Source: a bacterium Ga0077546
GTDB lineage: Bacteria > Cyanobacteriota > Vampirovibrionia > Obscuribacterales > Obscuribacteraceae
DNA length: 22,021 nt
NCBI GenBank assembly: GCA_001464165.1
Contig: LNEX01000391.1
Location: 1-22,021, forward strand
Direction of reading: 5' to 3'
Of this stretch, positions 3,195 to 20,503 are shown piece after piece. Position 1 is the stretch's first letter; every line of letters begins with the position of its first letter. The notes beneath the pieces are model-generated. The model was not told where the DNA came from. It worked only from the letters and a program-made list of their open reading frames with translations, and did not search any database. The position numbers and the translations under genes were made by a program.

Positions 3195-6100
3195 TTGTCT
3201 AAAGAAGTAGCCCGTATTCTCGATAATGACGTGCCAACGGCCAATCGGGCGCAGAAGCTTACTGAAGCTGAAGCAGCTTATGATAAGGCCATTGCCATTG
3301 CTAAACAAGTTACACCAGAGCAGATTGCTGCGGCTAAAGCCGACTACGATGCTGTGATAAAGGCTAAGGCCACTGAGACAGATCCTGAGAAGCTGCGGGC
3401 ATTAGCAGAGCGTCAAGCTGCTAATTACACCCTCATGCGTGTTAATGATTGTGCTCAAGGTAACAAAGCCCTCTGGCTCTATCGTCAAGGCCGAGTTGAA
3501 GAAGGAACTACTCAGTTCTTACAGGCTGCTGGCCTTTCTCCTGAAGATGCGAAGAATCTCGCTAAGCTCACTCCTGAGCAGAAAGCTGTATTGGGAGACA
3601 AGCTAAATGCCAATGCCACGATTCTTACTGACCCCAATTTCATGCGTCAATATACGCGCATTATGGAAAGCGGCCAAAAACTTCCACAAGAATTTGTGCA
3701 GATTCATCAATATCTAAGAGATCAACAAGAAAAAGCTGCGGCCGCGAAGCCCGCTGACTCTCCTGCTACCCAACGTGCTGAGGCCAATACACCGGCTGGG
3801 GCAGAGACACAAGAATCTAGAATAGCTACAATTCAGCGCCTTATTCCCAATGAAGCTGCCAACATTGCCGCCATTAGAGCTGGTAGTGAACTATCGAAGC
3901 AACTGACAGACAGTGGTGCAAAAACGCTGACACCAGAACAACAAAAAGTTTTGGCCGATAGTGTTAAGGCTTCCGATGACCACCTGCTTCTCTCAAAAGC
4001 CAAGTATGAATTTAGCGCTGCTGAGCTGGCCAGGCTTGTACCCACCGAGAAAGCTCCTGCATTCACAGCCGCCGTCGCTAAGATTGATACTGAGTTTGTC
4101 AATATGGTGGCGAAGAGCCCTAAGGGTGCTGATGGTAAACCTGCTCTCAGTCAGGCCGATGCTGGTCTCTTGCAAACAATCACTAATGTTGATGTCAGTG
4201 CAGCTGATCGTACTGCGGCCTTGGCTAAATTGGGTCAGTCCCACCCTGAATTTGGCAAAGCTGTTAATGATGCCGTTGCTGCCGTCGGTACTCAAGAAAA
4301 CGGCCTCAATGCTATTGCTCTGCAATTCGGTATGACTGGTCTGGCCAAGAACTATGAAGAGGCAATTTACGCTAAGCCTACTGCTCACTATAACTATGCT
4401 GCTCTACTCAATTCAGTTGGTGGTAAAGCTGCCGATGGCAGTGATAACAAGGCCACAGCTAAAGCAGTCTTAGAAGCTAGTTTCGCTGATTTGCCAGATG
4501 AGATCACAAAAGCTCTAGTGGCTGACCCTGTTGTGGCTAAGCTTGCCACCGATACTGGTGCTAAGCTCCCTGTGGTTGCTGCCTCAGCAGATAGTGCAGT
4601 CAATCCAGCAGCCAACCCAGCTGCCACTACAGACGCCGCTGCTGTTCCTGGAGATCAAGCTAAGACAACTGATGCTGCCGCTAACCCTGCTGCTCCTGGC
4701 GACATGGCAGCTCAATTGGCTGCGGCTACACCAGATCAGCTGCTCGATGCCGCTCACAAGATGGCCAAAGAAGGTCCAGATTACATACCGCAAACAAAGG
4801 CGCTTTACGAAGAGCTTTTGAAGCGCATTGATGATCCTGCTCGCGTTGCTGATTTGAAGAAGCAGCTAGCTGATAAAGTGGGTGCCATTGAGAAAGGCCA
4901 AACACTCGACGGCAAACCTCTTGATGCTGCCACCAGATTGCAGTATCACGCAGAGAATGCTGGTCTGATTGATTCATTGAGCCTCGGAATTACTGTCCGT
5001 CAAGAATATGCTGCCTACCTTGGTGGTAAAGATGCTCTGGCTATTGACACCAAGAGCCCTGAGAAACTGCAACCGGTTTTAGGCACTGGACCTAACCAAA
5101 TGGACTTGAACAAGTCCATGGATGATCAGCTTAAGCTGGTCTACGCTGCTGCCGATAATATGCCTGTTGACTTGATGAAGCGCGAGAAAGCCAACCTTGA
5201 AAAGAGCATGAGCACCATTGGCTCAAGTGATACTCAAGGTCTCATTCCTAAAGCTTTAGACTTCTTGCAGGGCACGAAAGACAGAGCTGGTGCCATCGAC
5301 ATTGCTGTCACCACTAGAACTGCTTCAGCAATGATGTATATTTCGCAAGGTGCTGTATTCAACCAGGAGAAGAAAGCCTGGGAGCACCGCTCCTCTCCGC
5401 AAATTGATTCTCTCTATCAGCCCACTAAGGCTGTTGAATTGCTTAAGCAAGCCGATGCTAAGTACAAAGAAATTCACGGCGCCAACGCTACCGACCCATC
5501 TCTTGATCAAGTTAAGGCCTTCGGTGCCCAACTTGCTCCTGAGCAATTCAAGGCTGTAACCACAGCGGCTAACACTAAGATGTGGAGCACTGGTGTTGAT
5601 ATTCTCGATACTGGTCTATCGTTTGGCACTCAGTTAGGTGTCGCAGCCCTATTGTCGAAGACAAAAATGGGTTACGTTGCTAAGCATGCCATCGCTGATG
5701 CTTCGTCATTTGGTGTTAACTTCGCTACTCGTTCCGTGGCAATGCGCTTAGGTACTGGTCAGTGGGAGGCTCCTACTGAGACTGCTGTGCATGCTGGTGC
5801 GGTATCAGCTCTGGTAATGTCCATGAAGTACGGCGGTATTGCTGGTAATAAGCTTTTGAACCGCAACCTTGCTGGTTATGAGAGTGTCGCTATGGCAGCT
5901 CGTAACATGGATAACGAGGCCGGCAAAGTTATGACTTTGGGCGAGTACGGCGAACGATTGGCTGCTAAAGGTCTGAAAACAGAAGCTGATGCTATTAGAA
6001 GTAGCAGTTTCGCCGGACGTAAGATTGCCGATTTGACCGATGATGAGTTGAGAGCAGTGTTGCCAACTTCGCTCTCCACCCGTGGCGCGGAGGCAATGAC

Positions 6101-7442
6101 TTTAGTTCAAGGGGGAATGTCTCCGGAGCTGAAAGCCATTAACGAACTGCAAAGAAATGGCATCAGTACTGTTGGTGATATCAAAGCTGCAGTAGCCAAA
6201 GATTTGGACGCTGCTCAAGACTTTGTTCAAGCCGCTAAAGCCGCTGGTTTAGATCCAAAATTGACTCCACGTCAAGCAATGGAGCAGCTTGGTGTCGCTG
6301 GAAATCCTCGTTTTGATACTGCTAAGAAAATCACCGACGAATTGGCTGCACTCGATAATGGTATGAGAGTATCGCGGCTTGGCAGTGTCGAATCAGTAAG
6401 AGTCCTGCCACAGGTTGGCCCATTTTCAGGTAGGTCTGTCAGTGTGCCAACTCGTGACGCTAGAACAATTGGTGAAATTGAGAGCTACGTTGCTAGAGCA
6501 ACTCCTGAAAGCGAAATGGCTCGCATGTTCCCTGGGCTTAGGGGGCAAGCAGACGACGTCGCTTTACGTCAGATTGAAGCAAGCGGAACCGGTATTTTTG
6601 GCGATATTTCTCGCAAGGGTGCCAACGGACAAGGCTGGCGTGCGCTGGATGAACTGGCTCCTGGAGTCAGTGACATCACCAAGAAATCAAAAGGTCAGTG
6701 GTTGAAGGAAGTATTTGTCACCGATCGTTTCTATGGTGGTCTCAGCATTCCTAAGACAGCTAGAGCTGACTTGGCTGATGTACAAGCTCTTAAGGCTGGC
6801 ATGACTCGCCGAGCCGATGCTGTATCTGTTGGTTCATATGTAGTCGGTCTGCATGCTTATCAGAGTATGACCGGTGGTTACGACAAACTGGTAAAGGGCG
6901 TCGACGAGAATGGCAAGGAGAAGAAGTACAATTTCAGCGAAGCTATGCTTGAGGCTAACTTCGGTAGCACCAATCCGACTGCCACTGAAGTCCTACTTCG
7001 CAGTGGTGTTCTGGAAGGTCTGTTTGCTGGAGCTGCCTTCCGTGGCTTCTCTAAGCTAGGTATGGCAGAAAGTAGAGACTTGGGTGTGAAAGCGATTCTT
7101 GGACAGAATCTCAATCGCAAAGCACTTACCTATCAAGCCTTGAGTTCTCCGCTTATTGCTCCGTTTGCAGGGGCTGCGCAAGATTCATGGACTTTGAGAC
7201 CCATGGTTACTGGGGCTGATCAGGAGCTTAAAGATTATGACTACGGCCTAGGAACCGCTATACCTGCTGCTGATGCAACGCCTAAAGCCCCTAGTGATGC
7301 AACACCTAAAGCCCCTGGTGATGCAACACCTACGGTCCCAGTCGATACAACTGCAAAAGCCACACCTCAAGCGGCTACAGATACAACTGCTAAGCCAGCA
7401 ACAAGTGCTGATCAAGTAACAAGCCCAGATGCTAGCCCATAA
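3195..7442 (+). CDS. Main body of the very large helical protein of unknown function
   Basis: 1415 aa from TTG 3195. The open frame extends upstream to about 3135 and joins the preceding entry by a one-base shift, so TTG 3195 is probably internal although an AAAGG lies 7 nt before it. The body is mostly predicted helix, rich in Ala, Lys, Glu and Gln, with one TPR-like stretch near residues 75-115 and Ala/Pro-rich linkers near 185-205 and 460-510. Gly/Ala-rich hydrophobic stretches lie around residues 800-900 and 1205-1340, and the tail is disordered Ala/Pro/Thr-rich with three 8-residue repeats. I recognise no catalytic motif or signal peptide. Architecture and a weakly similar segment link it to the protein at 7641-10445. 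A strong terminator follows. A structural or envelope-associated role is only a guess. Confidence 0.85.
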   Translation: MSKEVARILDNDVPTANRAQKLTEAEAAYDKAIAIAKQVTPEQIAAAKADYDAVIKAKATETDPEKLRALAERQAANYTLMRVNDCAQGNKALWLYRQGRVEEGTTQFLQAAGLSPEDAKNLAKLTPEQKAVLGDKLNANATILTDPNFMRQYTRIMESGQKLPQEFVQIHQYLRDQQEKAAAAKPADSPATQRAEANTPAGAETQESRIATIQRLIPNEAANIAAIRAGSELSKQLTDSGAKTLTPEQQKVLADSVKASDDHLLLSKAKYEFSAAELARLVPTEKAPAFTAAVAKIDTEFVNMVAKSPKGADGKPALSQADAGLLQTITNVDVSAADRTAALAKLGQSHPEFGKAVNDAVAAVGTQENGLNAIALQFGMTGLAKNYEEAIYAKPTAHYNYAALLNSVGGKAADGSDNKATAKAVLEASFADLPDEITKALVADPVVAKLATDTGAKLPVVAASADSAVNPAANPAATTDAAAVPGDQAKTTDAAANPAAPGDMAAQLAAATPDQLLDAAHKMAKEGPDYIPQTKALYEELLKRIDDPARVADLKKQLADKVGAIEKGQTLDGKPLDAATRLQYHAENAGLIDSLSLGITVRQEYAAYLGGKDALAIDTKSPEKLQPVLGTGPNQMDLNKSMDDQLKLVYAAADNMPVDLMKREKANLEKSMSTIGSSDTQGLIPKALDFLQGTKDRAGAIDIAVTTRTASAMMYISQGAVFNQEKKAWEHRSSPQIDSLYQPTKAVELLKQADAKYKEIHGANATDPSLDQVKAFGAQLAPEQFKAVTTAANTKMWSTGVDILDTGLSFGTQLGVAALLSKTKMGYVAKHAIADASSFGVNFATRSVAMRLGTGQWEAPTETAVHAGAVSALVMSMKYGGIAGNKLLNRNLAGYESVAMAARNMDNEAGKVMTLGEYGERLAAKGLKTEADAIRSSSFAGRKIADLTDDELRAVLPTSLSTRGAEAMTLVQGGMSPELKAINELQRNGISTVGDIKAAVAKDLDAAQDFVQAAKAAGLDPKLTPRQAMEQLGVAGNPRFDTAKKITDELAALDNGMRVSRLGSVESVRVLPQVGPFSGRSVSVPTRDARTIGEIESYVARATPESEMARMFPGLRGQADDVALRQIEASGTGIFGDISRKGANGQGWRALDELAPGVSDITKKSKGQWLKEVFVTDRFYGGLSIPKTARADLADVQALKAGMTRRADAVSVGSYVVGLHAYQSMTGGYDKLVKGVDENGKEKKYNFSEAMLEANFGSTNPTATEVLLRSGVLEGLFAGAAFRGFSKLGMAESRDLGVKAILGQNLNRKALTYQALSSPLIAPFAGAAQDSWTLRPMVTGADQELKDYDYGLGTAIPAADATPKAPSDATPKAPGDATPTVPVDTTAKATPQAATDTTAKPATSADQVTSPDASP
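7272..7343. repeat. 24-bp tandem repeat (3 units) at the 3' end of the large gene
   Basis: Units at 7272, 7296 and 7320 encode DATPKAPS, DATPKAPG and DATPTVPV. The first two differ at two bases; the third has diverged in its second half. They lie in the disordered Thr/Pro/Ala-rich tail, mirroring the repeat-rich N-terminus of the same gene. Confidence 0.9.
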
Positions 7443-7582: not shown

Positions 7583-7640
7583 CCATATTACTGAGGCCGT
7601 GATTGTTTTCACTCAGTATATGAAGTAAGAGGGGTTGACC

Positions 7641-10445
7641 ATGACCGAGACTAAGCCAGAAACTACTAAGGTAGCCGATTCAACTCCTAAAAAGGCTGAT
7701 GAAGCTGGTGATGCCAGCCTTAAGCTGAGCTTGGCCGGGAACGCTCCCAAGGATACTGGTGACAAAGTAAAAGTAACAGATGCAGCGGCCAAGCCGGCTG
7801 AAATCGACGTCAAGAAGCAAACTGAAGAGATATTCGGTCGCATTAATACCGCAAAACAATCTGCTGATGCCCTGGCTGAGCTTATCGTCAGTAAGAAGCC
7901 GATGGACGAGAAGCTTACCGTTACCGGCGCTGATGGTAAGAGCCAGCAAACTACTGTAGGCGAACGCATCAAAGAGCTGAAGCAAACTGTTGACAGTGCC
8001 GCTAATCAGGCTGTTGTGATGTCTAAGTCTGTTGATCAAGCCGAAGTTTCGCGTCAACTAAATAACAATCTTGCCGAGCGCAATAGCATTGCCAAATCGC
8101 TTGGTCTTGATACCAATAAACTATCTTCTGCCAGCATCACTGAAGCTTTGAAAAATCCCGGTGATAGTGCTACCAAGACTAAGCTTGAAGGCTTGCTCGC
8201 TGCTCAAGATAGAGTCGACGGTTTGAAGACTCTAGAGAACGCACCGGCTTTTACTAAGCTGATCTATGCTCAACTTAAGGGTGGTGGTTTTACCAATCCT
8301 GATACACCAGTTGAGATGATGGCCAACGGTAAGCTTAAAGTTGATCGTGCTGATGTCACCGATGCTATGTCACTCATTGCTGAAGCTGGCGCTAGCAGCA
8401 AAGAATTGCGCAATCATCCCCTTTATCTTAATGCTGTCAACGAAGTATTTCCTCGCAACGAAAATGGTTCGCAGAAAGTGCAGGTGATCACCCAAGAACT
8501 GCAGAATGCAATTGAGCTTGGTAGCAAGGGCAATAAAGCTGAACAGGAGAAAGCTCTCAAAGCTGCTGTTGCTCAAGCTGACAACATCAACGTGCCATTG
8601 ATCGCTCAAATGGTTAAAGACCCTGCTTTTGCTAACAGACAAAGCCCTGAAGTTTTGAAAGAAATGGCTAATACTGTGGTAATGGCTGAGACCGCTAGAT
8701 TGCAATATGCTCAGTTCTTGGCTGAGCAAGGTCGCTTTGGTGAAGCTCAGGCACTCACCTTAAGAGTAAAAGCCGAGTGCCCAGATGTTATGTACAACCG
8801 GGGCGCCGATGGTCAGATACACTACAATGACAATCGTTTCGTTGATTTGGCTAAACTCGATAAGCAGATGGCTGCTTCTTCTACTTTTGATCCGAATAAA
8901 CTCAACACCGATATCAATAATTTCCGCACTCAGTTCCAGCGTTTGCAAGGCGGCAATACCGACTCTAGCACTGAGACAAAAGAGTCTCTTTATGGCAAAG
9001 GTATGAACAACGCTCAGGTCAAAGCCGATTTGGAAGCATTGGGTCACTCGATGGACGGTCAGCTGGCTACCCAGAAGCGCGAACTAACGCAGTCTAAACA
9101 GGCTCTTGATGCTGAGAAAGCAAAACTAGAAGCTGAACAGAAAGGGCTTGGCTCCAAGACTTTCTTGACTGAAGAAGCCGGAAAGATTGAAGCCAAGCGC
9201 ATAGAAGATCAAATCAAAATGATTGATATGCAAAAAAGTCAACTCGACGAGCAAATAGCCAACAATACCAAAAACACTCAGTTGGTTCGCATGCTCGAAG
9301 CTAGTTATGACTTATCTCGTGAAGATAGAAACGCTGCTAATGCTAAGCTGGCTGAAATTGAGCGTGGCGATCCTGAATTTGTCGCTAAGAACAGAGAAGT
9401 TTTGGACCAGATGAAAGACATGGCTAAAGAGCCAGGTTGGTGGGATAGCTGGGGCAAGAAGCTTTGTATTGTCGGCGCTGTAGTTGTCGGTGTTGCTGCT
9501 GGCATTTGGCTTGGACCAGGGGCAATCGCCACCGGAATTGCCGCTGGCTCAGCCGCTGCTACTGCTCTAGGGGTTGGAGCCGTCGGTACCTCGATGCTTG
9601 TTACTGCTGGAGCCGTTGGTGGTGTGACAGTTCTGGGGTTAGGAGCTGGCACCGCGGCCGGTGCCATGACCTACGGCGCCAGAAAAATTGCCGATAACAC
9701 TAATGGCTTGGCGCTAGACAAAGAAGGTAAGCCCATATTCACGAGAGAGACCGCATGGCAAGATGCTGGTGATGCTTTCCGCACTGCTGGCTACGCTGCT
9801 GCATTTACTGCTCTGCCGGGGGCCGCTGGAGGCATTGCTAAAGCCACAACTGTGGCGGGTGAAAGTACTGTTGCCGCTGCCACCACTACTGGTGTTATTG
9901 GTAGAGTTGCTCATGCCGCTCCAAAAATGCTTACCTTTGGCACCACTATGACTGCTGGTCAGACCGCTATAGACGTAGCCTCTGGTCATGGTTCAGAGTT
10001 AACCTTGAAAGGCGTAGCTGGGCAATTGGCATTAAACAGTGTGCTTGGCGTGGGCAGTGCCATTAGTGAAACTGGTCTTATGGCCAGAACTCTAGGTAAA
10101 GTTGTGTCAACGGAAAAACTAGCACCAACGGTCGGTGCACTGACTTATGTTGGCATTACACAAGGAATGAGCATCTATAGCGATCGCACCGGTGTGCAAG
10201 AGCACGGCGCTGCTTATGACGGTTTCAGAAACTCTCCAAGTGTCATCGGGCCATGGGGCTATACTCCACACGATGTAAGCAAGTCCACTTTCCAAGCAGC
10301 TCAAGTTAGAGCAAATATGCAATCACTAGATCAAGGTCAGTCGTATTACACTGCTAAGCCCTATAATGCCAGTACTTTTACAGGCAGCAATTCGGTGTTC
10401 GACAATGCTGCCAGATTGGCCGCCCAGCGTGACGCAAATAAGTAG
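7641..10445 (+). CDS. Large coiled-coil protein with Gly/Ala-rich membrane-like region, unknown function
   Basis: 934 aa. ATG 7641 is chosen over TTG 7635 because the ribosome binding site AAGAGGGG (7627-7634) leaves 6 nt to ATG and none to TTG. The first ~50 residues are Lys/Thr/Asp/Ala-rich and probably disordered. A long helical region follows; about residues 470-600 are strongly charged coiled coil. After a WWDSWGKK junction (from W600), residues 608-680 form an unbroken Gly/Ala/Val-rich hydrophobic stretch long enough for two or three membrane passes with glycine-zipper spacing. A second Gly/Ala/Thr-rich part (about 705-850) precedes a polar tail rich in Tyr, Ser and Gln. No signal peptide or enzymatic motif is seen. 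It shares architecture and the AGGGGTT ribosome-binding context with the preceding large gene. Membrane association is inferred, function unknown. Confidence 0.9.
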   Translation: MTETKPETTKVADSTPKKADEAGDASLKLSLAGNAPKDTGDKVKVTDAAAKPAEIDVKKQTEEIFGRINTAKQSADALAELIVSKKPMDEKLTVTGADGKSQQTTVGERIKELKQTVDSAANQAVVMSKSVDQAEVSRQLNNNLAERNSIAKSLGLDTNKLSSASITEALKNPGDSATKTKLEGLLAAQDRVDGLKTLENAPAFTKLIYAQLKGGGFTNPDTPVEMMANGKLKVDRADVTDAMSLIAEAGASSKELRNHPLYLNAVNEVFPRNENGSQKVQVITQELQNAIELGSKGNKAEQEKALKAAVAQADNINVPLIAQMVKDPAFANRQSPEVLKEMANTVVMAETARLQYAQFLAEQGRFGEAQALTLRVKAECPDVMYNRGADGQIHYNDNRFVDLAKLDKQMAASSTFDPNKLNTDINNFRTQFQRLQGGNTDSSTETKESLYGKGMNNAQVKADLEALGHSMDGQLATQKRELTQSKQALDAEKAKLEAEQKGLGSKTFLTEEAGKIEAKRIEDQIKMIDMQKSQLDEQIANNTKNTQLVRMLEASYDLSREDRNAANAKLAEIERGDPEFVAKNREVLDQMKDMAKEPGWWDSWGKKLCIVGAVVVGVAAGIWLGPGAIATGIAAGSAAATALGVGAVGTSMLVTAGAVGGVTVLGLGAGTAAGAMTYGARKIADNTNGLALDKEGKPIFTRETAWQDAGDAFRTAGYAAAFTALPGAAGGIAKATTVAGESTVAAATTTGVIGRVAHAAPKMLTFGTTMTAGQTAIDVASGHGSELTLKGVAGQLALNSVLGVGSAISETGLMARTLGKVVSTEKLAPTVGALTYVGITQGMSIYSDRTGVQEHGAAYDGFRNSPSVIGPWGYTPHDVSKSTFQAAQVRANMQSLDQGQSYYTAKPYNASTFTGSNSVFDNAARLAAQRDANK

Positions 10446-10480: not shown

Positions 10481-11227
10481 ATGCAGGTATCGGTAATTAT
10501 TCCGGCGTATAATGAAGATAGGCGACTTCCTATTACTCTAACGTCGGTCTACCGCTATCTTTATCAGTCGGGTTTAAGCTTCGAAATCATTGTTGTCGAC
10601 GATGGCTCATATGATGATACTGCTTCTTATGTCGAAGAATTTGCTGAGCAGTATCCTGGCGTAAGGCTGCTTTCCTATGCGCCAAATCGAGGCAAAGGAT
10701 ACGCTGTGCGTACTGGCATGTTGGCCGCTAGTGGCGATTATTTGCTCATGAATGACGCTGACGGTAGTTCGCCTATCGAAGAGATGCAAAAGCTCTTAGC
10801 GAAAGGCGAAGAAGGCTTTGATGTGGTTATTGGCTCGCGGGCCATGGGTGATCCTGAGGCTGTGATCAAAGCCTTGCCTCACCGCAAATATATTGGCAAT
10901 ACTTTTAATCTAATTGTGCAGAAACTGATTCTTCCTGGTATCAAAGATACTCAGTGTGGTTTCAAACTATTTCGTCGCCAAGCAGCCCATGACATTTTTT
11001 CGGTTTCGCGTTTGAATGGCTATGCCTTTGATGTAGAGCTTCTCTATATCGCTCGCTTACGCGACTATAAAATTGCCGAAATTGCCATTAACTGGGCCAA
11101 CGTAGAAGGTTCTAAAGTAAACGTCTTGACTGATTCACCACGGATGTTGGCAGAAGTACTGCGCATCACATTTAGTGCTTGGTTTGGTGGCTATCGTAAG
11201 TTAGTGACAAAGAAAAGGTCTCAGTGA
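10481..11227 (+). CDS. GT2 family glycosyltransferase, dolichyl-phosphate glucosyltransferase-like
   Basis: 248 aa, GT-A fold family 2. The N-terminus has VSVIIPAYNE, followed by IVVDDGS (D40, D41), NRGKGYAVRTG and the metal-binding region MNDADGSSP (D92-A-D94). IGSRAMGD and DTQCGFKLFRR are typical of the DPM1/dolichyl-phosphate beta-glucosyltransferase-like subgroup, which transfers a sugar from a nucleotide donor to a polyprenyl phosphate at the cytoplasmic membrane face. No C-terminal transmembrane segments are present, so it is the short soluble or peripheral type. ATG 10481 is the only start that keeps the N-terminal strand. It follows the large gene by 35 bp without a convincing terminator, so it may be cotranscribed with it. 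Donor and acceptor cannot be told from sequence. Confidence 0.92.
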   Translation: MQVSVIIPAYNEDRRLPITLTSVYRYLYQSGLSFEIIVVDDGSYDDTASYVEEFAEQYPGVRLLSYAPNRGKGYAVRTGMLAASGDYLLMNDADGSSPIEEMQKLLAKGEEGFDVVIGSRAMGDPEAVIKALPHRKYIGNTFNLIVQKLILPGIKDTQCGFKLFRRQAAHDIFSVSRLNGYAFDVELLYIARLRDYKIAEIAINWANVEGSKVNVLTDSPRMLAEVLRITFSAWFGGYRKLVTKKRSQ

Positions 11228-12024
11228 ACATTGGCTGTCGCAAGCGCGTCAACAACTTCTTGGTGAATTTTGCCATTGCTAGCGAGAATGTGACCACTCA
11301 TCATATCTAGGGGGCCGCCTTCAAGGTTGCTAACTTTGCCACCAGCTTCTTCAACGATGAGGGCCCCAGCGGCGACGTCCCAGGCCGACAGTTTTCTTTC
11401 CCAGAAACCATCGAGACGACCACAGGCGACAAAGGAAAGATCAAGGGCGGCAGAGCCGTCGCGCCTGACGCCATGGCAGATGTTGGTCACGTGTTTGAAG
11501 CTATCCATATTGTTATAGACATTGTTGACAGTATCAGGAGGGAAGCCAGTAGCCAACAGGCCATTGTCAAGAGAATTACAGCTTGAGGCATGAATAGGCT
11601 CGTCGTTAAGAAATGCACCTTGGCCTTTAATAGCTCGGAATAATTCACCTGACATCGGGTTGAAAATAACGCCATGGGTGACTACGCCATCTTCTTCAGC
11701 GGCGATGGAGACGCAAAAGAAGGGATAACTATGGGTGTAGTTGGTAGTTCCATCTAGCGGATCGATTATCCACCTTCTGTTTGGCGCGCTGCTAGTTTTA
11801 CCAGTATTTCCGTGGGTGATTCCGCCCTCTTCAGCCAGGAAGCTGTCTTCAGGAAAGGCTGCTTTGATGGTGGCGATGATCAAATCTTCTGAAGCTTTGT
11901 CTACATCAGTGACAAGGTTGTAAGCGCTCTTATAATCCACGCTCTTGATTTTGCCAAGCCGAGCTTTTAGCAAAGCTCCACCTACCAATGCTGCCTCTTT
12001 TGCTACATCGAAGACTTTTGTCAT
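11221..12024 (-). CDS. suhB: Inositol monophosphatase family protein (SuhB-like)
   Basis: 267 aa, full length for the family. The Li+-sensitive, Mg2+-dependent phosphatase motifs are complete: LAEEGG (E65, E66), WIIDPLDGTTN (D88, D91, T93) and the C-terminal WDVAAGALIVEEAGG (W215, D216). Members hydrolyse inositol-1-phosphate or related sugar phosphates; in Escherichia coli SuhB also takes part in rRNA transcription antitermination. The ATG at 12024 is preceded by AAAGG at a 5-nt spacing. The stop codon lies inside the 3' end of the convergent glycosyltransferase gene, a 7-bp overlap. Substrate uncertain: inositol-, histidinol- or fructose-1,6-phosphate activity occurs within the superfamily. 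Confidence 0.93.
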   Translation of the reverse strand: MTKVFDVAKEAALVGGALLKARLGKIKSVDYKSAYNLVTDVDKASEDLIIATIKAAFPEDSFLAEEGGITHGNTGKTSSAPNRRWIIDPLDGTTNYTHSYPFFCVSIAAEEDGVVTHGVIFNPMSGELFRAIKGQGAFLNDEPIHASSCNSLDNGLLATGFPPDTVNNVYNNMDSFKHVTNICHGVRRDGSAALDLSFVACGRLDGFWERKLSAWDVAAGALIVEEAGGKVSNLEGGPLDMMSGHILASNGKIHQEVVDALATANVH

Positions 12025-12049
12025 AACCGCCTTTAGTTAACTTGAGTAG

Positions 12050-12079
12050 AATATTTTGAGTTTACTCTAAAGCCGTCAA
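12050..12079 (-). promoter_or_regulatory. Candidate promoter for suhB
   Basis: On the minus strand TTGACG (12079-12074) is followed after 18 bp by AATATT (12055-12050), which would start RNA near 12043, about 20 nt before the suhB ATG. A 10-bp dyad GAGTTTACTC (12058-12067) lies in the spacer. The -35 box is in inverted orientation to an identical TTGACG at 12113 facing ileS. Confidence 0.35.
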
Positions 12080-12112
12080 TAAAGACTTGTTTAGCCCAGA
12101 AGATGCGTTTTG

Positions 12113-12142
12113 TTGACGAATGTAGGGTTGCAGCTCTATCCT
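12113..12142 (+). promoter_or_regulatory. Candidate promoter for the ileS leader transcript
   Basis: TTGACG (12113-12118) matches the -35 consensus at five of six bases. TATCCT (12137-12142) follows after 18 bp and matches four of six at -10. RNA would start near 12149, giving about 45 nt before the leader ORF at 12195 and about 150 nt to the end of the terminator at 12298. Confidence 0.45.
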
Positions 12143-12194
12143 CTATAGGCATATTTATATTGAACTTGATTACCCCCTTTAAAAAGATGCTCTC

Positions 12195-12242
12195 ATGAAA
12201 CTTGGCAACTCTATTTCAATAGAAATTATTACAAGCAAGTAA
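12195..12242 (+). CDS. Putative ileS leader peptide (15 aa, Ile-rich)
   Basis: ATG 12195 to TAA 12240 encodes MKLGNSISIEIITSK. Four of the six codons at 12213-12230 are Ile (ATT TCA ATA GAA ATT ATT). The stop lies two bases before the 5' arm of a possible antiterminator (12244), and an intrinsic terminator follows at 12266, upstream of ileS. This is how leader peptides of amino-acid biosynthetic and some aminoacyl-tRNA synthetase operons are built; E. coli pheST, with a Phe-rich leader, is the known synthetase case. The ribosome binding site is weak (AAAAAG, 12181-12186, 8 nt upstream), the main reason for caution. The ORF could be chance. Confidence 0.42.
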   Translation: MKLGNSISIEIITSK

Positions 12243-12243
12243 G

Positions 12244-12271
12244 GGCGTGGGTAAGTGAATTTGCCACCGCC
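12244..12271 (+). promoter_or_regulatory. Possible antiterminator hairpin of the ileS leader
   Basis: GGCGTGG (12244-12250) can pair with CCACCGCC (12264-12271) over 7 bp with a single bulged C and a 13-nt loop. The 3' arm shares bases 12266-12271 with the 5' arm of the terminator stem, so the two hairpins cannot form together. A ribosome paused on the Ile codons (12213-12230) would leave 12244-12250 free to form this hairpin; a ribosome at the stop codon (12240) would cover it and allow the terminator. Confidence 0.42.
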
Positions 12272-12298
12272 AGCATCACTGTTGGCGGTTTTTGTTTT
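12266..12298 (+). terminator. Intrinsic terminator upstream of ileS (attenuator)
   Basis: ACCGCCAGC (12266-12274) pairs with GTTGGCGGT (12281-12289) over 9 bp with one G-U pair and a 6-nt loop. It is followed by TTTT-G-TTTT to 12298. It reads toward ileS, and no plus-strand gene ends nearby (the neighbour is suhB on the opposite strand). It must therefore end a leader RNA or an independent small RNA starting in 12100-12200. The ileS ribosome binding site GAGGA (12354-12358) is 55 bp further on. Confidence 0.88.
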
Positions 12299-12364
12299 AG
12301 ATCAATTTTTAGCTCATTTTTAGACCTAACTTAAAACCAATTTAGAGACTCTTGAGGACATACA

Positions 12365-15247
12365 GTGGCCGACGATAAGAAGAAATTTCCAGTCAATCTT
12401 CCTGTTACTGCTTTCCCTATGAAAGCTAACAGCACGGTTCGCGAAGTCGAAATTCAGAAGTTCTGGGATGAAAAACAAGTTTATGAGCTCAATTTAGAAA
12501 AGCGTAGTGCTTCTGAAAAGTTCGTCTTGCACGATGGCCCGCCTTATTTGAGCTCGAGCAAGATTCACATTGGTACCGCTCTCAATAAAATTCTCAAAGA
12601 TATCATCACTAAATACAAAGCTCTTCATGGCTTCTACGCTCCTTATGTGCCGGGTTACGATAGCCATGGTTTGCCCATCGAAAACGCCGCTCTGAAAAAT
12701 GTAAAAGGCGGAAGAGCCGCCATAACTCCAGTTGAGCTACGAAAAAAATGTAGAGAATTTGCCCTCTCTAACCTTAAGGGTCAAGAAGATAACTTTAGAA
12801 GACTGGGCGTCTGGGGCGATTGGGCCCATCCTTACATCACCCTTGATCAGCATTTTGAAGCGGCTCAAATAAGAGTGTTTGGCAAGATGGTAACTAATGG
12901 TTATCTCTACAAAGGTCTCAAGCCAGTTTACTGGTGCCCCACTTGCGAGACCGCTTTGGCCGAAGCAGAAGTTGAGTATGCCGACCATACTTCTAACTCA
13001 ATCTATATCAAATTTCCTGTGCCAGATTCTGAGCGCAGTAAGTTGCCTAAGTTTGTTTCTGAGGCAAAAAATGGTGCCGCAAGCACTTATGAAAAGACGC
13101 CTGTATCGTTTGTCGCCTGGACCACCACTCCATGGACTCTTCCAGCTAACTTAGCCATTGCTCTCCATCCAGATTTTGTCTACGAATTCATCACTACTCC
13201 AGATCATGGCGTGTTGGTGGTGGCACAGAGTCTGCGTGAGACTTTCTTGCAAGCTGCTGATATTGATGCTGCTGCAGTTGTTGTGCTGGGTGAAGCTACC
13301 GGGCGCGAACTGGAATTAATAGAAGCCAGACATCCCTTTGTTGATAGAGCTAGCCGAGTAATCAACGGTGCTCACGTTACCAATGAAGCTGGTACTGGTG
13401 TGGTACACACTGCTCCTGGTCACGGTCCAGAAGACTTTGAGGTGGGCAAGCTCTACAACCTAGGCGTCCTTTCGCCAGTTGATGGTCGCGGTATCTTCAC
13501 AGATGAAGCTGGTCAATTTGCCGGGCAGCACTATGCCAAAGCTAATCCTGCCATTGTGGAGCATTTGAAAGAAGTTGGTGCTTTGATCAAGCATCAAACT
13601 TTCAGCCATAGCTATCCTCATTGTTGGCGTTGTAAGAACCCTCTGATTTTCCGCGCAACCGAACAGTGGTTTGCTTCGGTAGAAGGATTCCGTCAAAAGG
13701 CTCTTGAGTGCATTGACCAGGTGGAATGGTTGCCAAACTCTGGTCGCAACCGCATCTTTAACATGGTGCAGAACCGCTCAGACTGGTGTATCAGCAGGCA
13801 GCGTGCCTGGGGCGTACCAATTCCAGTTTTCTATTGCAAGAAATGCAATGAGCCTTTGATGAATGAAAAGAGCATTGAAGCTATTGCCAAAGTCTTTGAC
13901 GCTGAGGGTTCTGATAGCTGGTGGGAAAAGACACCACAAGATTTTGTCGGTGATATGAAGTGCGGCAGCTGCTCGTCTTCTGAGTTTGTTCGTGAGACCG
14001 ACATTATGGATGTCTGGTTCGATTCAGGGGTGACCCATGCTGCTGTACTTGATGCTCGTCCTGAATTGCGTGGTTCGCCCTGTGAGCTTTATTTGGAAGG
14101 TTCAGATCAGCACCGCGGTTGGTTCCAGTCGTCACTTTTGACCAGCGTTGCCATTCATGGTCGGGCACCATACAAGACCGTTCTCACGCACGGCTTTGTC
14201 GTTGATGAAAACGGCCGCAAGATGTCTAAGTCTGTGGGTAACGTGGTTGATCCCGATGAAGTAATAAAACAGTATGGTGCTGACGTATTGAGGCTGTGGG
14301 TGGCTTCGGTGAATTACACCGACGATATTCCAATCGGCAAGAATATGTTGGCTCAATTGGCCGAAGTTTATCGTAAGCTGCGCAATACAGCCCGTTATAT
14401 GCTTGGCAATTTGTATGATTTTGACCCTGCGGTTGATGCTGTGCCTTTTGAAGATCTCTCTTCTCTAGATCGCTTCTTATTGCACCGCCTCAATGAATTG
14501 GTAGAAGAAGTAACTCGCGACTTCGATCGCTTTGAATTCTTCAAGTACTATCAATTGCTGCAAAACTTCTGTGTGGTAGAGCTATCTTCGTTCTATTTCG
14601 ATATTGCCAAAGATACTCTCTACACAGCTGGGCCGAAATCTCTCAAGCGCCGCTCAGTGCAAACTGTGCTGGCTCACATGCTGCAGGCTCTGGTGCGATT
14701 GCTGGCACCAGTTACACCGCACATGGCTGAGGACATCTGGCAGCATATGACCGATGCCGTGAAGACATTCGGTGGCGGCCACCAAAGCGTATTGCTAACC
14801 GATTTCCCAAAATCAAACAAGAGCTTTGAGAACACTCTAGAATCTGATTTCTGGCATGAGCTAATTGACGTGCGCATCATTGTCAACAAAGCCTTAGAGA
14901 CAGCTCGGGCCGCTCGCAAAATTGGTAGCTCATTGGAAGCCAAAGTAGAGTTGGCCTTTGAAGACGCTGCTCTAGCTAAGAAAGTAGCAGCTCTGGGTGA
15001 AGACTTGCCAGGTTTCTTCATTACTTCGCAAGCTGTAATTGGTATCACTTCAACTGTAGAAGCACTGGCTGAAAACAATGAAAGTGGTATCAGTGTCAAA
15101 GTAATTCCTGCATCTGGTGCCAAGTGTGCCCGCTGTTGGAAATTCACTGAAGATCATGGCAAGGGCAAATTGCCAGTGCTCTGCCTGCCTTGCGATGAGG
15201 TGATTGCCGAGTATTATCCAGATTTTGATTTGGAGCTGGCGCTCTAG
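12365..15247 (+). CDS. ileS: Isoleucyl-tRNA synthetase
   Basis: 960 aa, class Ia synthetase charging tRNA-Ile. The first signature motif reads HIGT (H68-T71) instead of HIGH; the second, KMSKS, is intact (619-623). The CP1 editing domain has WTTTPWTLPAN and GTGVVHTAPGHGPEDF. WFDSGVTH, GSDQHRGWFQSS and an anticodon-binding helical domain follow. The C-terminal zinc finger has two Cys pairs (KCARCW and LCLPCD), the usual bacterial type with the FPG/IleRS finger. Start GTG 12365 is set by GAGGA at a 6-nt spacing. A leader with a terminator precedes it, suggesting attenuation control, and a long hairpin follows, so it is probably transcribed alone. Everything except the HIGH variant looks normal for a functional enzyme. 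Confidence 0.97.
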   Translation: MADDKKKFPVNLPVTAFPMKANSTVREVEIQKFWDEKQVYELNLEKRSASEKFVLHDGPPYLSSSKIHIGTALNKILKDIITKYKALHGFYAPYVPGYDSHGLPIENAALKNVKGGRAAITPVELRKKCREFALSNLKGQEDNFRRLGVWGDWAHPYITLDQHFEAAQIRVFGKMVTNGYLYKGLKPVYWCPTCETALAEAEVEYADHTSNSIYIKFPVPDSERSKLPKFVSEAKNGAASTYEKTPVSFVAWTTTPWTLPANLAIALHPDFVYEFITTPDHGVLVVAQSLRETFLQAADIDAAAVVVLGEATGRELELIEARHPFVDRASRVINGAHVTNEAGTGVVHTAPGHGPEDFEVGKLYNLGVLSPVDGRGIFTDEAGQFAGQHYAKANPAIVEHLKEVGALIKHQTFSHSYPHCWRCKNPLIFRATEQWFASVEGFRQKALECIDQVEWLPNSGRNRIFNMVQNRSDWCISRQRAWGVPIPVFYCKKCNEPLMNEKSIEAIAKVFDAEGSDSWWEKTPQDFVGDMKCGSCSSSEFVRETDIMDVWFDSGVTHAAVLDARPELRGSPCELYLEGSDQHRGWFQSSLLTSVAIHGRAPYKTVLTHGFVVDENGRKMSKSVGNVVDPDEVIKQYGADVLRLWVASVNYTDDIPIGKNMLAQLAEVYRKLRNTARYMLGNLYDFDPAVDAVPFEDLSSLDRFLLHRLNELVEEVTRDFDRFEFFKYYQLLQNFCVVELSSFYFDIAKDTLYTAGPKSLKRRSVQTVLAHMLQALVRLLAPVTPHMAEDIWQHMTDAVKTFGGGHQSVLLTDFPKSNKSFENTLESDFWHELIDVRIIVNKALETARAARKIGSSLEAKVELAFEDAALAKKVAALGEDLPGFFITSQAVIGITSTVEALAENNESGISVKVIPASGAKCARCWKFTEDHGKGKLPVLCLPCDEVIAEYYPDFDLELAL

Positions 15248-15516: not shown

Positions 15517-17229
15517 GTGAAGCCAGAAGAGCGGCAAAAGCAACCAGAGCTAAAAGAGAATATTGAGTTAAAAGAAGTGGAGCCGGTCGCGACTGCAGCC
15601 AATTTGGTCGAAGAATCTTCTAGTTTATTGCCATCGTCTAGTCTTTTACCGCCCTCATATCAAGCCTATGCCCCACAGCCCGCATCCTCTCTGATGGTTG
15701 AGCCCCAGCCGCCGGAGGCTTCGCCAGAGCCATTTCCGAATCTTGGCGATCGCTATGAAGTTCTTGCTTTGGTTGGTCGCGGCGGTATGGGAGTCGTCTA
15801 CAAAGTTAGAGACAAAGCAGTCGACAAAGTATTCGCTGTTAAAGTTCTCAATCACGATCTGCTTCAAGACAAAGTATCGGTTAAACGCTTTGAGCAAGAA
15901 GCTAAGGCGGCCAGTGCTCTCACCCATGCGAATTTGGCAGCAGTCTACGATTATGGCGTTGGTCTTAGCGGTTGTCCCTTCTTGGTCATGGACTATCTGG
16001 AAGGCCAGACCTTAGAGCAAGAGCTGGCCCAGGAGGGTTATTTTGATAGTGAGCGGGCTCTCGATATATTTATCCAAGCAGCGGAAGCTATGGCTGACTC
16101 TCACCTCAAGGGAGTTATTCACCGCGATATTAAACCGGCCAATATTATTTTAGAGAAAGCCGAAAATGGATCTGACTTTGTCAAGCTAGTGGATTTTGGC
16201 ATCGCCAAAGTCTTACCTAGTGAGCAAATGGCCCATGAAAATTTGACTCAGACAGGAGACATCTTCGGCAGCCCTCTCTATATGTCGCCAGAGCAGTGCG
16301 AAGGCAATATGCAAGATCGCCGCTCAGATATTTATTCGCTTGGATGTTTGATGTACGAGACTCTCACTGGTGTTAAGCCCTTTGCTGCTGAGAATCCCAT
16401 CAAGATTATTCTTCGACATATTCATGAAGACCCCAAACCTATTACTAGTCTTACAACGGTTTCCAATCTTCCAGCTCAGTATAAAGTGCCGTCCGATCTA
16501 GACAAGGTGATTTTGCGCTGCTTAGCGCGAGACCCTAATTGTCGCTACCAGTCTGCTTATGAGCTAGTAAACGATCTTAAACTTATCCGCGATGGTAAGA
16601 AAGTGAAGTTTCCACAGCCGTTGGCCATGCCACTAGGTGAGAAGCATTCTAAACGTGAGAGGTTGGTTGTTCTCACTCTGTGTTTGGTTTTGTGCATGGT
16701 TGCAGGCATCTTCATTTATCGGCTTTCCTCTCTCTCTCCACCCGCCACCTCTATTGGTCATCCTATTGCAGCACCCAATGATCAGTTTGCCGATGCCCTT
16801 AATTTTGACAGTAAGTCGTATTCATATTTTATCTCTGGTGAGTATGATAAAGCGGCACCACTGCTTGAGTTTGGTACCAAGGTCTATAGAGATAGTATTG
16901 CTGCTGACCTTAAGCGCGGAGACGACGCTGCTTTTCGTCGAGACAGTGCTCTGCTCAATGAAAATTTCCAGCACCTAGGCAAATGCTACATGATGATGGC
17001 TCGTCAGTCGTCGAGCAAGGGGCTGGCCAGAGAAGCAACTGAGTTGCTCAATAAGGCTAAGGCTAACTATGATCTGGCCATGCCCTTCTATAAAAAATAT
17101 GGCAATTATTCTGGTGGACAGATGCCTGAGTTTGTCACTGATTTTTCCGAAGTTTTGCGCAAGCTAGATTTGCAGGCTGAACTTAAGCAACTGAGAGATT
17201 TAGCTCAAGCGAATAAGATTGAAATCTAG
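15517..17229 (+). CDS. Transmembrane Ser/Thr protein kinase with helical-repeat C-terminus
   Basis: 570 aa. A Pro/Glu/Ser-rich disordered N-terminus (about 1-76) precedes a Hanks-type kinase domain (about 80-345): glycine loop GRGGMGVVYK (from G87), AVKVL with K109, catalytic HRDIKPAN (H202-D204), DFG (226-228) and an activation segment ending GSPLYMSPEQ with nearby Thr residues suited to autophosphorylation. One transmembrane helix (about 383-401) follows, then a Pro/Ser linker and a helical, TPR-like domain (about 430-560) that should lie outside the cytoplasm. All catalytic residues are present, so it should be active. PASTA repeats are absent, unlike PknB of Gram-positives. GTG 15517 has GGAG at a 7-nt spacing. 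It ends 3 bp from the convergent Nudix gene. Signal and substrates are unknown. Confidence 0.94.
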   Translation: MKPEERQKQPELKENIELKEVEPVATAANLVEESSSLLPSSSLLPPSYQAYAPQPASSLMVEPQPPEASPEPFPNLGDRYEVLALVGRGGMGVVYKVRDKAVDKVFAVKVLNHDLLQDKVSVKRFEQEAKAASALTHANLAAVYDYGVGLSGCPFLVMDYLEGQTLEQELAQEGYFDSERALDIFIQAAEAMADSHLKGVIHRDIKPANIILEKAENGSDFVKLVDFGIAKVLPSEQMAHENLTQTGDIFGSPLYMSPEQCEGNMQDRRSDIYSLGCLMYETLTGVKPFAAENPIKIILRHIHEDPKPITSLTTVSNLPAQYKVPSDLDKVILRCLARDPNCRYQSAYELVNDLKLIRDGKKVKFPQPLAMPLGEKHSKRERLVVLTLCLVLCMVAGIFIYRLSSLSPPATSIGHPIAAPNDQFADALNFDSKSYSYFISGEYDKAAPLLEFGTKVYRDSIAADLKRGDDAAFRRDSALLNENFQHLGKCYMMMARQSSSKGLAREATELLNKAKANYDLAMPFYKKYGNYSGGQMPEFVTDFSEVLRKLDLQAELKQLRDLAQANKIEI

Positions 17230-18921: not shown

Positions 18922-20442
18922 TCAGCTTCGACTTTGGCAGTGTCTTCTTTCTGCTGGTGCTCTTGTGCTCATTGACTGAGCTTTGGCTTCTTCTGCTTTT
19001 TCTTTGCCGCCACCTTGTTCTAGATAAAACACCGAGAGGTTGGCATAGGCCATGATTGAATCAGGATTAATACGAGCTAGGGCTTCCATTAGTTCCACAG
19101 CTTCGTCCAGTTGATTCTCTTTCGATAGAATCACACCGAGGGCTTCGTAAGCATCTTCTAGATGGCTGTCGAGAAGCAGAGCAGTGCGTAGCTTCTTGAT
19201 GGCTTCTGTGGTGTTGTTGTCTTGGTTAAGTGTTCGGTTGCTATCTGGGCCAGTTGCTTCCGCCGTTTCTTGGCTATTTGATGCGCTCTTGCTGTCGATA
19301 GTGGCATAGAGCTTGAGAGCCTCTTCGTAGAGGTCTTTGGCTTTCAGCTTTAGGTCTTCAGGCTCAATAAAAGGCAGCAGTTTAATTGTGGCCTTACCTG
19401 TAATCGCGGTAGAGCCACCGCTTTCGCTTGGTACCCCAATTGATACTTCTAGCTGGCGGCCTGGTGTTCGGAAGTCGCGTTTGACCATGGCTAGGGCAAT
19501 GTGTCTCTGCAAACGTTGAGAATAGGCATTAGACAGAATTTTGGCAACCTCTTGGCCCGCCACCATAAGTGGTGTGCCTACTGAGATATTGCCATCAATA
19601 GAGCTATTTTGATTGCTCTCTAGCTCTAGTATTAGGCCTGTTAGTTGCTTATTTGGAGAGCCATGTCCTTTGACACGAGCAAGTACTTCTTGTCCCTGGA
19701 AGCAGCCCTTTGTGTAGCTTATGGCCTTGTCTTCTAAGCCTAGTTCGATAATCAAATTTTCGCTGCTGAAGTCTGTGGCAAATTGTGGCAGGCCTGCTTC
19801 GATGCGTTCGACTAGCAGTTGCTGTTCGCTTAGCTTCTTGGCTCCATACTTATTTAAGGCGGGTAGCAGCTTCTCTTGCAGAGTCTCAAATTGGTCGTCA
19901 GAACAATAAATTAAGAATGCTTCTCTGCTTGAAAGTGGTGCTCTGAATATATGTACATTGATGCCAAAGAGGTCGCCGTCAATCAGATCTCTCTCGAAAA
20001 GCGCTGGGTTCTTTTGGCTGAGATTGTCATTGATTACCGTGCGGGCATCAGAGCCAATCAGAGCTAGCATTTTGCCACTGCTCAAGTTAAGCAGTTCGAC
20101 TTTGTCAGAGAAAATGTATTTGTCGAGATGTTCTAATATGGTGGCAACTTGGCTTTCTTCGGCAATGATGCGGTAAGAGCTGTTTTTGCGATAGAGATTG
20201 AAGTAGGCAATCACATGGGCCTTGCGGTCTAAGAGTGCACTAGGCTGCCACTGGTAGGGCTTCAAAGCTTTTACGTCGCTGGTGGTCTGAGCATTGATAA
20301 AACGTTCGCTGTCAGCCCCGTAGATCTCGATCAGGCTGTATTGTGCCGCGGCAACATATCCGAGTTCTTTGCCTGAGTTGCTACGCACCTCTTCTGCTTT
20401 TTCTTCTGCTTTCATGGGGCGAGCCAGTTTTAGCTTGTTCAT
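18922..20442 (-). CDS. ygfZ: YgfZ/GcvT-like folate-binding protein fused to TPR repeats (frameshifted)
   Basis: 506 aa from ATG 20442. The first ~330 residues match YgfZ (COG0354): IEIYGADSERFINAQTTSDV, then the family signature KGCFQGQEVLAR with its conserved Cys (C247). YgfZ proteins bind tetrahydrofolate and help make or repair certain Fe-S enzymes. After a Ser/Asn-rich linker, TPR units follow (about 365-500), which ordinary YgfZ lacks. The final 15 or so residues (STRAPAERRHCQSRS) are out of character. A +1 shift at 18948-18971 continues the TPRs into the next frame, giving about 632 aa. A GTG at 20502 would add 20 residues but lies inside a terminator hairpin, so ATG 20442 is preferred. 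It follows an Fe-S carrier gene, which fits the role. Confidence 0.88.
   Translation of the reverse strand: MNKLKLARPMKAEEKAEEVRSNSGKELGYVAAAQYSLIEIYGADSERFINAQTTSDVKALKPYQWQPSALLDRKAHVIAYFNLYRKNSSYRIIAEESQVATILEHLDKYIFSDKVELLNLSSGKMLALIGSDARTVINDNLSQKNPALFERDLIDGDLFGINVHIFRAPLSSREAFLIYCSDDQFETLQEKLLPALNKYGAKKLSEQQLLVERIEAGLPQFATDFSSENLIIELGLEDKAISYTKGCFQGQEVLARVKGHGSPNKQLTGLILELESNQNSSIDGNISVGTPLMVAGQEVAKILSNAYSQRLQRHIALAMVKRDFRTPGRQLEVSIGVPSESGGSTAITGKATIKLLPFIEPEDLKLKAKDLYEEALKLYATIDSKSASNSQETAEATGPDSNRTLNQDNNTTEAIKKLRTALLLDSHLEDAYEALGVILSKENQLDEAVELMEALARINPDSIMAYANLSVFYLEQGGGKEKAEEAKAQSMSTRAPAERRHCQSRS
18948..18971 (-). other. Frameshift site in the YgfZ-TPR gene
   Basis: Between the TGA closing the downstream frame (about 18969) and the TGA ending the first frame (18922-18924), removing one base joins the two TPR-coding parts. 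Likely spots are AATGAG (about 18968-18973) or the AAA run read from 18950-18948, where losing one A gives AEEDTAKVEAEALERK. The repaired length 18543-20442 is then a whole number of codons. Confidence 0.7.
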
Positions 20443-20464
20443 CTTGCTACTCTTGAGATTATTT

Positions 20465-20503
20465 AAAAAAGGAAACGTGCCGGACAGAATTTTTGCCGGC
20501 ACG
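20465..20503 (-). terminator. Intrinsic terminator between the Fe-S carrier and ygfZ genes
   Basis: Read on the minus strand, CGTGCCGG (20503-20496) pairs with CCGGCACG (20483-20476) over 8 bp with a 12-nt loop, followed by TTT-CC-TTTTTT down to 20465. It lies 33 bp after the Fe-S carrier stop and ends only 22 nt before the ygfZ ATG. Either ygfZ depends on read-through, or its promoter overlaps or precedes the hairpin. Confidence 0.85.

Follow-up and report, generated by a model that had tools for sequence, protein, structure and literature searches.

How is the expression of ileS controlled in a bacterium of the non-photosynthetic sister lineage of cyanobacteria? The question is raised by the region 5' of this gene in the window, which here means the whole stretch of 22,021 nucleotides that was analysed. 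In the trpL-type attenuator of Escherichia coli, a leader ORF carries tandem cognate codons near its stop, and alternative hairpins that share an arm are associated with a U tract. A preliminary description of this DNA had read the ileS upstream region as such a leader-peptide attenuator. Our comparison of 51 ileS upstream regions supports that reading, and we consider it highly probable, from the sequences compared, that the region is a ribosome-mediated transcription attenuator that would tune ileS to the amount of charged tRNA-Ile available.

The proposed regulated gene, ileS, encodes isoleucyl-tRNA synthetase (12365..15247, plus strand, GTG start at 12365; TIGR00392, 964.8 bits). A gene of the inositol-monophosphatase family (11221..12024, minus strand; PF00459), previously called suhB, lies divergently 5' of the ileS region. 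All features of the region itself are on the plus strand. A promoter-like pair, TTGACG-18-TATCCT, stands at 12113..12142 and is followed by a leader ORF of 15 codons (MKLGNSISIEIITSK, 12195..12242) with its ATG at 12195 and its stop codon TAA at 12240-12242. The putative regulatory Ile codons stand in the leader reading frame at 12213..12230 (ATT 12213, ATA 12219, ATT 12225, ATT 12228). Segment A (GGCG, 12244..12247), the predicted 5' arm of the antiterminator, starts, counted from first bases, 4 nt past the stop codon and 16 nt past the last Ile codon, and its predicted partner is 12268-12271. In the minimum free energy fold from the stop codon to the terminator 5' arm, an inner antiterminator helix at 12250..12265 pairs 12250-12254 with 12261-12265. 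Segment B (12266..12275) is the predicted 5' arm of the terminator and is also used by the antiterminator, and segment C (12280..12297) comprises the 3' arm of the predicted terminator hairpin (12280-12289) and the U tract. The terminator, 12266-12289, has 10 pairs, 6 of them GC, and then a T-rich tail. The sequence GAGGA at 12354..12358 reads as the Shine-Dalgarno-like motif of ileS. Promoter pair, Ile-containing ORF, stop codon and terminator thus all lie where the preliminary description had placed them; its antiterminator, 12244-12250 with 12264-12271, was close and is better drawn as the two helices 12244-12247/12268-12271 and 12250-12254/12261-12265.

Other genes of the window were also noted. 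A Ser/Thr protein kinase (PF00069) is encoded 3' of ileS at 15517-17229 (plus strand) and resembles PknB, below the cut-off of that family. Two very long ORFs at 3195-7442 and 7635-10445 (plus strand; 1415 and 936 aa) drew no match from Pfam or from NCBIfam at E 0.001, and a single protein encoded at 18922-20502 (minus strand) combines aminomethyltransferase-like folate-binding domains with subsequent TPR repeats.

In the proposed mechanism, transcription would start downstream of 12142 and a ribosome would translate the 15-codon leader. When Ile-tRNA is ample, the ribosome would reach the stop codon and mask A (12244-12247), so that the terminator formed by B and C (12266-12289) would halt transcription short of ileS. 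When Ile-tRNA is scarce, the ribosome would stall on the Ile codons with its 3' edge just short of A; free A would then pair with B ahead of the synthesis of C, and transcription would read through into ileS.

In the window by itself, most of these parts depart little from chance. Between 10500 and 13000, promoter-like sites number 6 vs 3.4 expected and terminator-like sites 2 vs 2.3 expected, neither count being beyond chance in shuffled sequences. The antiterminator energy of the window does not stand out from shuffles (p 0.184; the helix is short), and the whole fold of 12150-12310 shows no strong departure from chance (z -1.81). An Ile-rich ORF at the window's spacing to the terminator is beyond chance (p 0.007). 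It is because of its conservation in relatives that the attenuator as a whole exceeds chance. The same figures bear on the reading that 12266-12289 is no more than an intrinsic terminator that ends a small RNA or a short transcript from upstream, with Ile codons and alternative pairing there by accident: the window terminator by itself is within chance, terminators alone are common, and one relative (G045) has a terminator without an Ile ORF. The comparison described below leaves this reading very improbable, since it is contradicted by the joint occurrence of ORF and terminator, by the frame of the Ile codons and by a segment A that is complementary to B in all 34 leaders.

The IleS sequences nearest to that of the window are those of L001 (96% identity) and L002 (69%; Candidatus Melainabacteria), and the next loci, many of them from Gastranaerophilales, have 51-57% identity. 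These neighbours place the window among the non-photosynthetic relatives of the cyanobacteria, in the order Obscuribacterales. As relatives we took the 53 genomes of the order of L001 and searched them with the window IleS. An ileS start was obtained in 50 of them (G011, G014 and G020 were left out for want of one), which together with the window gave 51 upstream regions. In an automatic scan, 34 regions had a terminator no more than 170 nt from the ileS start, and 33 of these had an Ile-rich ORF that ended 21-33 nt 5' of it. In G034, the ORF MSTLLVSAIII, 24 nt from the terminator, was taken as the leader in place of a TTG-started ORF 71 nt away; G002 has a leader and a terminator with an interrupted T run, which only a looser terminator scan found. 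The tally over the 51 regions is 34 with both ORF and terminator (the window and 33 genomes), 16 with neither and 1, G045, with a terminator only. The looser scan gave 33 with both, 15 with neither, 2 with a terminator only (G045 and G018) and 1 with an ORF only (G043, whose terminator it missed); the G018 hairpin looks unrelated and has no leader ORF. ORF and terminator thus occur jointly (Fisher p 2.4e-12 on raw counts, uncorrected for kinship). The terminator lies 20-89 nt from the ileS start. At 80% IleS identity the 34 leader loci form 16 clusters, and therefore represent more than one recent copy.

Regions that lack the leader also lack the terminator, with the exception of G045 and, in the looser scan, G018. 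Within 300 nt, two of the 17 regions without a leader (G024 and G028) carry an Ile-rich ORF; neither has a terminator. The preliminary description had named relatives that keep the terminator and lack the Ile ORF as evidence against its reading; among the 35 regions with a terminator, 34 keep both and G045 alone does not. In G045 (locus L130), the leader ORF between promoter and terminator has apparently been lost with the terminator retained, though the assembly may be at fault. For a terminator without its leader ORF, as in G045, constitutively low ileS expression is predicted.

The leader ORFs, of which MYTSIIIPT, MLVRIIIISS, MFSRAAIIITS, VSVRNIIRTIIIEC, MYIQHTISAIIILD and the G034 peptide are examples, contain 2-6 Ile codons each in the 34 regions out of 51 that have them; where more than one start codon was possible, it was picked by hand. 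Together they hold 131 Ile codons, namely 94 ATT, 24 ATC and 13 ATA. Ile enrichment was assessed in the 35 sequences with a terminator (34 leaders and G045), with the ORF end placed 15-40 nt 5' of the terminator. At least 2 Ile residues occur in the last 8 codons in 34/35, vs 5.0% of dinucleotide shuffles, and at least 3 in 28/35, vs 0.6% of shuffles; any other amino acid reaches at least 3 in the last 8 codons in at most 1 of the 35. Within the last 8 codons of the 34 leaders, 113 Ile triplets are in frame, and the two alternative frames hold 7 and 8. Both the presence of in-frame Ile codons in 34/35 and this frame bias of 113:7:8 argue against accidental Ile codons before a plain terminator.

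Outside the Ile codons, no third-position bias was detected in two clades (differences at positions 1/2/3 of 9/12/9 and 50/61/48). Only the Ile codons therefore appear to be selected, and it is from their frame alone that we infer that the leader is translated; given the absence of this bias, no claim is made for a functional leader peptide. The weak ribosome binding site that the preliminary description had seen in the window proved genuine and general. No Shine-Dalgarno motif precedes the window leader start (12178-12194), and a Shine-Dalgarno-like 4-mer is present at 12/34 leader starts vs 8.0 expected, so that the group is hardly above chance. A Shine-Dalgarno-like motif stands 5' of the ileS start in 49/51 regions. 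With G047 left out, whose contig stops there, 33 leaders were scored for promoters: the best site 5' of the leader ORF starts with TTGAC in 24/33, and the mean score is 8.9 of 12 vs 7.8 for shuffled letters.

Segment A is strongly conserved, often as GCTGG, and is complementary to the terminator 5' arm B, often CCAGC; the A of G030 looks misaligned in the antiterminator alignment. When the stretch that begins at the stop codon and closes with B was folded, A was predicted to pair with B in 34/34 leaders. The antiterminator energy is lower than that of shuffles on average (mean z -3.06) and reaches p <= 0.05 in 28/34 leaders; it is not beyond shuffles in the window, G001, G009, G012, G050 and G008. 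The preliminary description had asked of the two alternative stems that they show compensating changes, and this holds for the terminator. Over 31 distinct sequences, pairing in the terminator helix amounts to 94.4%, and 5 of its 8 pairs have changed on both sides. None of 500 shuffles attains its covariation score or its pairing percentage; two of the five measures, the counts of both-side-change pairs and of pair types, are reached by 29 and 81 of the 500. For the antiterminator helix the pairs are kept (85.9% of alignment cells paired) and the changes do not exceed controls, its covariation being reached by 79/500 shuffles, while versions slid along the alignment gave more double-change pairs in 2/6 and more double-change cells in 3/6.

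The spacing fits the classical model, as the preliminary description had argued from the window. Over the 34 leaders, A lies 15.0 +/- 2.3 nt (range 11-20) past the first base of the last tandem Ile codon and 5.4 +/- 2.7 nt (range 3-13) past that of the stop codon. Counted from the first base of the codon in its A site, a ribosome shields some 12-13 nt on the downstream side. With this reach, a ribosome waiting at the last Ile codon would only just spare A, and one at the stop codon would cover most of it. Moreover, Ile-to-stop and stop-to-A distances compensate each other (Spearman -0.39, p 0.023, uncorrected for kinship). Where the Ile run extends up to the stop codon (G034 and G036), A lies 13 nt past the stop codon, and where it ends earlier (G040 and G008), A lies 3-4 nt past it. 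A stalled ribosome may select between the two hairpins. A protector hairpin of the trp type is predicted for the window and its close kin; over the 34 leaders its mean is 0.67 vs 0.63 for shuffles, which is not beyond chance. In place, then, are the parts, their order and spacing, the in-frame Ile codons, the terminator covariation and the joint occurrence of ORF and terminator.

The Ile-rich ORF might also be translated and control ileS through translation, message stability or reinitiation and not through termination. The leader could indeed signal to the ileS ribosome binding site as well, with the terminator 20-89 nt from the start. However, what is conserved and covaries is a terminator with a U tail and not a hairpin that would cover the ribosome binding site of ileS, and the Shine-Dalgarno-like motif of ileS lies outside the terminator hairpin (49/51 starts). 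We therefore give this kind of control a small probability and prefer transcription attenuation.

A T-box is the usual control of ileS in Bacillota. In a T-box, the leader RNA itself would bind uncharged tRNA-Ile directly and no peptide would be involved; gene and signal would be the same as in the attenuator proposed here, and a terminator/antiterminator pair would likewise be expected. Nevertheless, Rfam gave no match of any kind in the window at gathering score, and no T-box is among the matches up to E 10 in 12025-12420. RF00230, which the preliminary description had proposed as a check, was found in 0/53 genomes of the order vs 5/14 control genomes (strict filters, with scoring limited to 34 candidates or fewer in each genome). 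In the Rfam scan L027 showed its T-box, no T-box appeared in L002, L089, L108 and L110, and a crude T-box pattern occurred 5' of ileS in 9/45 loci scanned, all outside the cyanobacterial phylum. A T-box thus has next to no likelihood here. For the attenuator, Ile-tRNA would be the signal, sensed through the leader ribosome.

To see where else the element occurs, a covariance model was built from 29 of the 34 leaders, with the near-duplicates G001, G012, G036, G042 and G044 left out. It gave one match each in 33 of the 53 genomes of the order, always just upstream of ileS, and none elsewhere in these 53 genomes at E <= 0.01 (strict filters, 81 candidates scored per genome). All of these matches belong to sequences that went into the model or to near-duplicates of them, and recovering them therefore tests nothing; the test lies in the lack of further matches. 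Across 146 genomes of the phylum, with 29 candidates scored in each, the model found G001 itself and one marginal partial match in G275 (33.6 bits, E 0.005, model positions 31-92), which we take as chance. Leader ORFs were also sought at other genes of the order, with at least 2 cognate residues in the last 10 codons and the listed frame lengths: candidates were found at 23/30 ileS loci, 0/21 ilvB loci, 0/25 valS loci and 1/30 pheS loci. The pheS candidate (L182 in G020), a TTG-started ORF of 39 codons with 3 Phe in the last ten and a weak hairpin 80 nt on, was judged probably due to chance. Among the places examined, the element is confined to ileS.

Outside the order, the element was present in 0/25 of the next-nearest IleS loci (L003-L026 and L030), 2 of which have a terminator, and in 0/20 chosen genomes of the class, 3 with a terminator, a set that partly overlaps the 25 loci. 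In L073 (Atribacterota), MKLNTVMLITISP lies 25 nt 5' of a GC-rich hairpin before ileS; a similar hairpin recurs nearby, and this case is probably chance. Mapped on a 55-row IleS tree, which has some open forks and long branches, the leader takes at least 8 changes by a quick method. A single gain close to the root of a clade of 47 rows, followed by several losses, would fit, as other readings may. We lean towards an independent origin in the non-photosynthetic cyanobacterial sister lineage, where the element would have arisen near the base of most of the order as a dedicated Ile sensor of ileS only and was apparently dropped as a unit several times.

Acetolactate synthase (ilvB) is above the TIGR00118 cut-off in only 21/53 genomes of the order, and none is over it in the genomes nearest to the window (G001, G009, G010, G012 and G013). 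This scarcity suggests frequent Ile auxotrophy, though the genomes may be incomplete. Genomes with ilvB over the cut-off number 14/33 with the leader vs 5/17 without it, which is no clear association.

The proposed element shares with the trp, his, leu and ilv attenuators of Proteobacteria an ORF with tandem cognate codons, hairpins with a shared arm, a U tract and a downstream gene for the same amino acid. Unlike them, it precedes ileS, whose product is a tRNA synthetase and not a biosynthetic enzyme, and unlike the trp type the ileS leaders have no supported protector hairpin and have weak Shine-Dalgarno sites. No Rfam leader-peptide family matched at gathering score in the window, L002, L089, L108 or L110. 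Leader-peptide attenuation of a synthetase gene is familiar from pheST of E. coli. Further cases in the portions of the literature accessible to us are trpS and leuS of Streptomyces, under leader-peptide control (PMC1262725), hisS of bacilli, with leader peptides (PMC2965389), and a named trpS leader CDS of Caulobacter (PMC4117421); ileS of Actinobacteria is assigned there to a T-box of the translational form (PMC1262725). The ileS leaders resemble those of pheST, Streptomyces trpS and leuS and bacilli hisS, as far as the excerpts describe these, in having an ORF 5' of the synthetase gene that is rich in the charged amino acid, and the trpS leader CDS of Caulobacter in the position of the ORF 5' of a synthetase gene (PMC4117421). 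The accessible parts of these three papers (PMC1262725, PMC2965389, PMC4117421) describe no leader with Ile codons before ileS, and no sequence relation to the known synthetase leaders is claimed. In Caulobacter crescentus, an "ileS leader CDS (CCNA_03934)" is named as a negative control; it is likewise a small ORF 5' of ileS, for which the available text of PMC4117421 describes neither Ile codons nor attenuation. According to the available part of PMC4833913, cyanobacteria offer no reliable data on attenuation, and Ile/Val attenuators are known yet missing from Rfam, as far as the text of PMC3766115 at hand goes. The mechanism is therefore old, being of the classical trp type. Within the reach of the open-licence literature searched, what is new is the control of ileS by Ile codons and its occurrence in the cyanobacterial phylum; ileS may have been the subject of an earlier prediction.

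Taken together, the 34 diverged copies and the apparent joint losses provide a natural series from which it may be learned which spacings and pairings attenuators need. The same series may reveal how an attenuator works without strong leader ribosome binding sites. Moreover, the leader would report the charging of Ile-tRNA in uncultured bacteria, many of them seemingly without ilvB.
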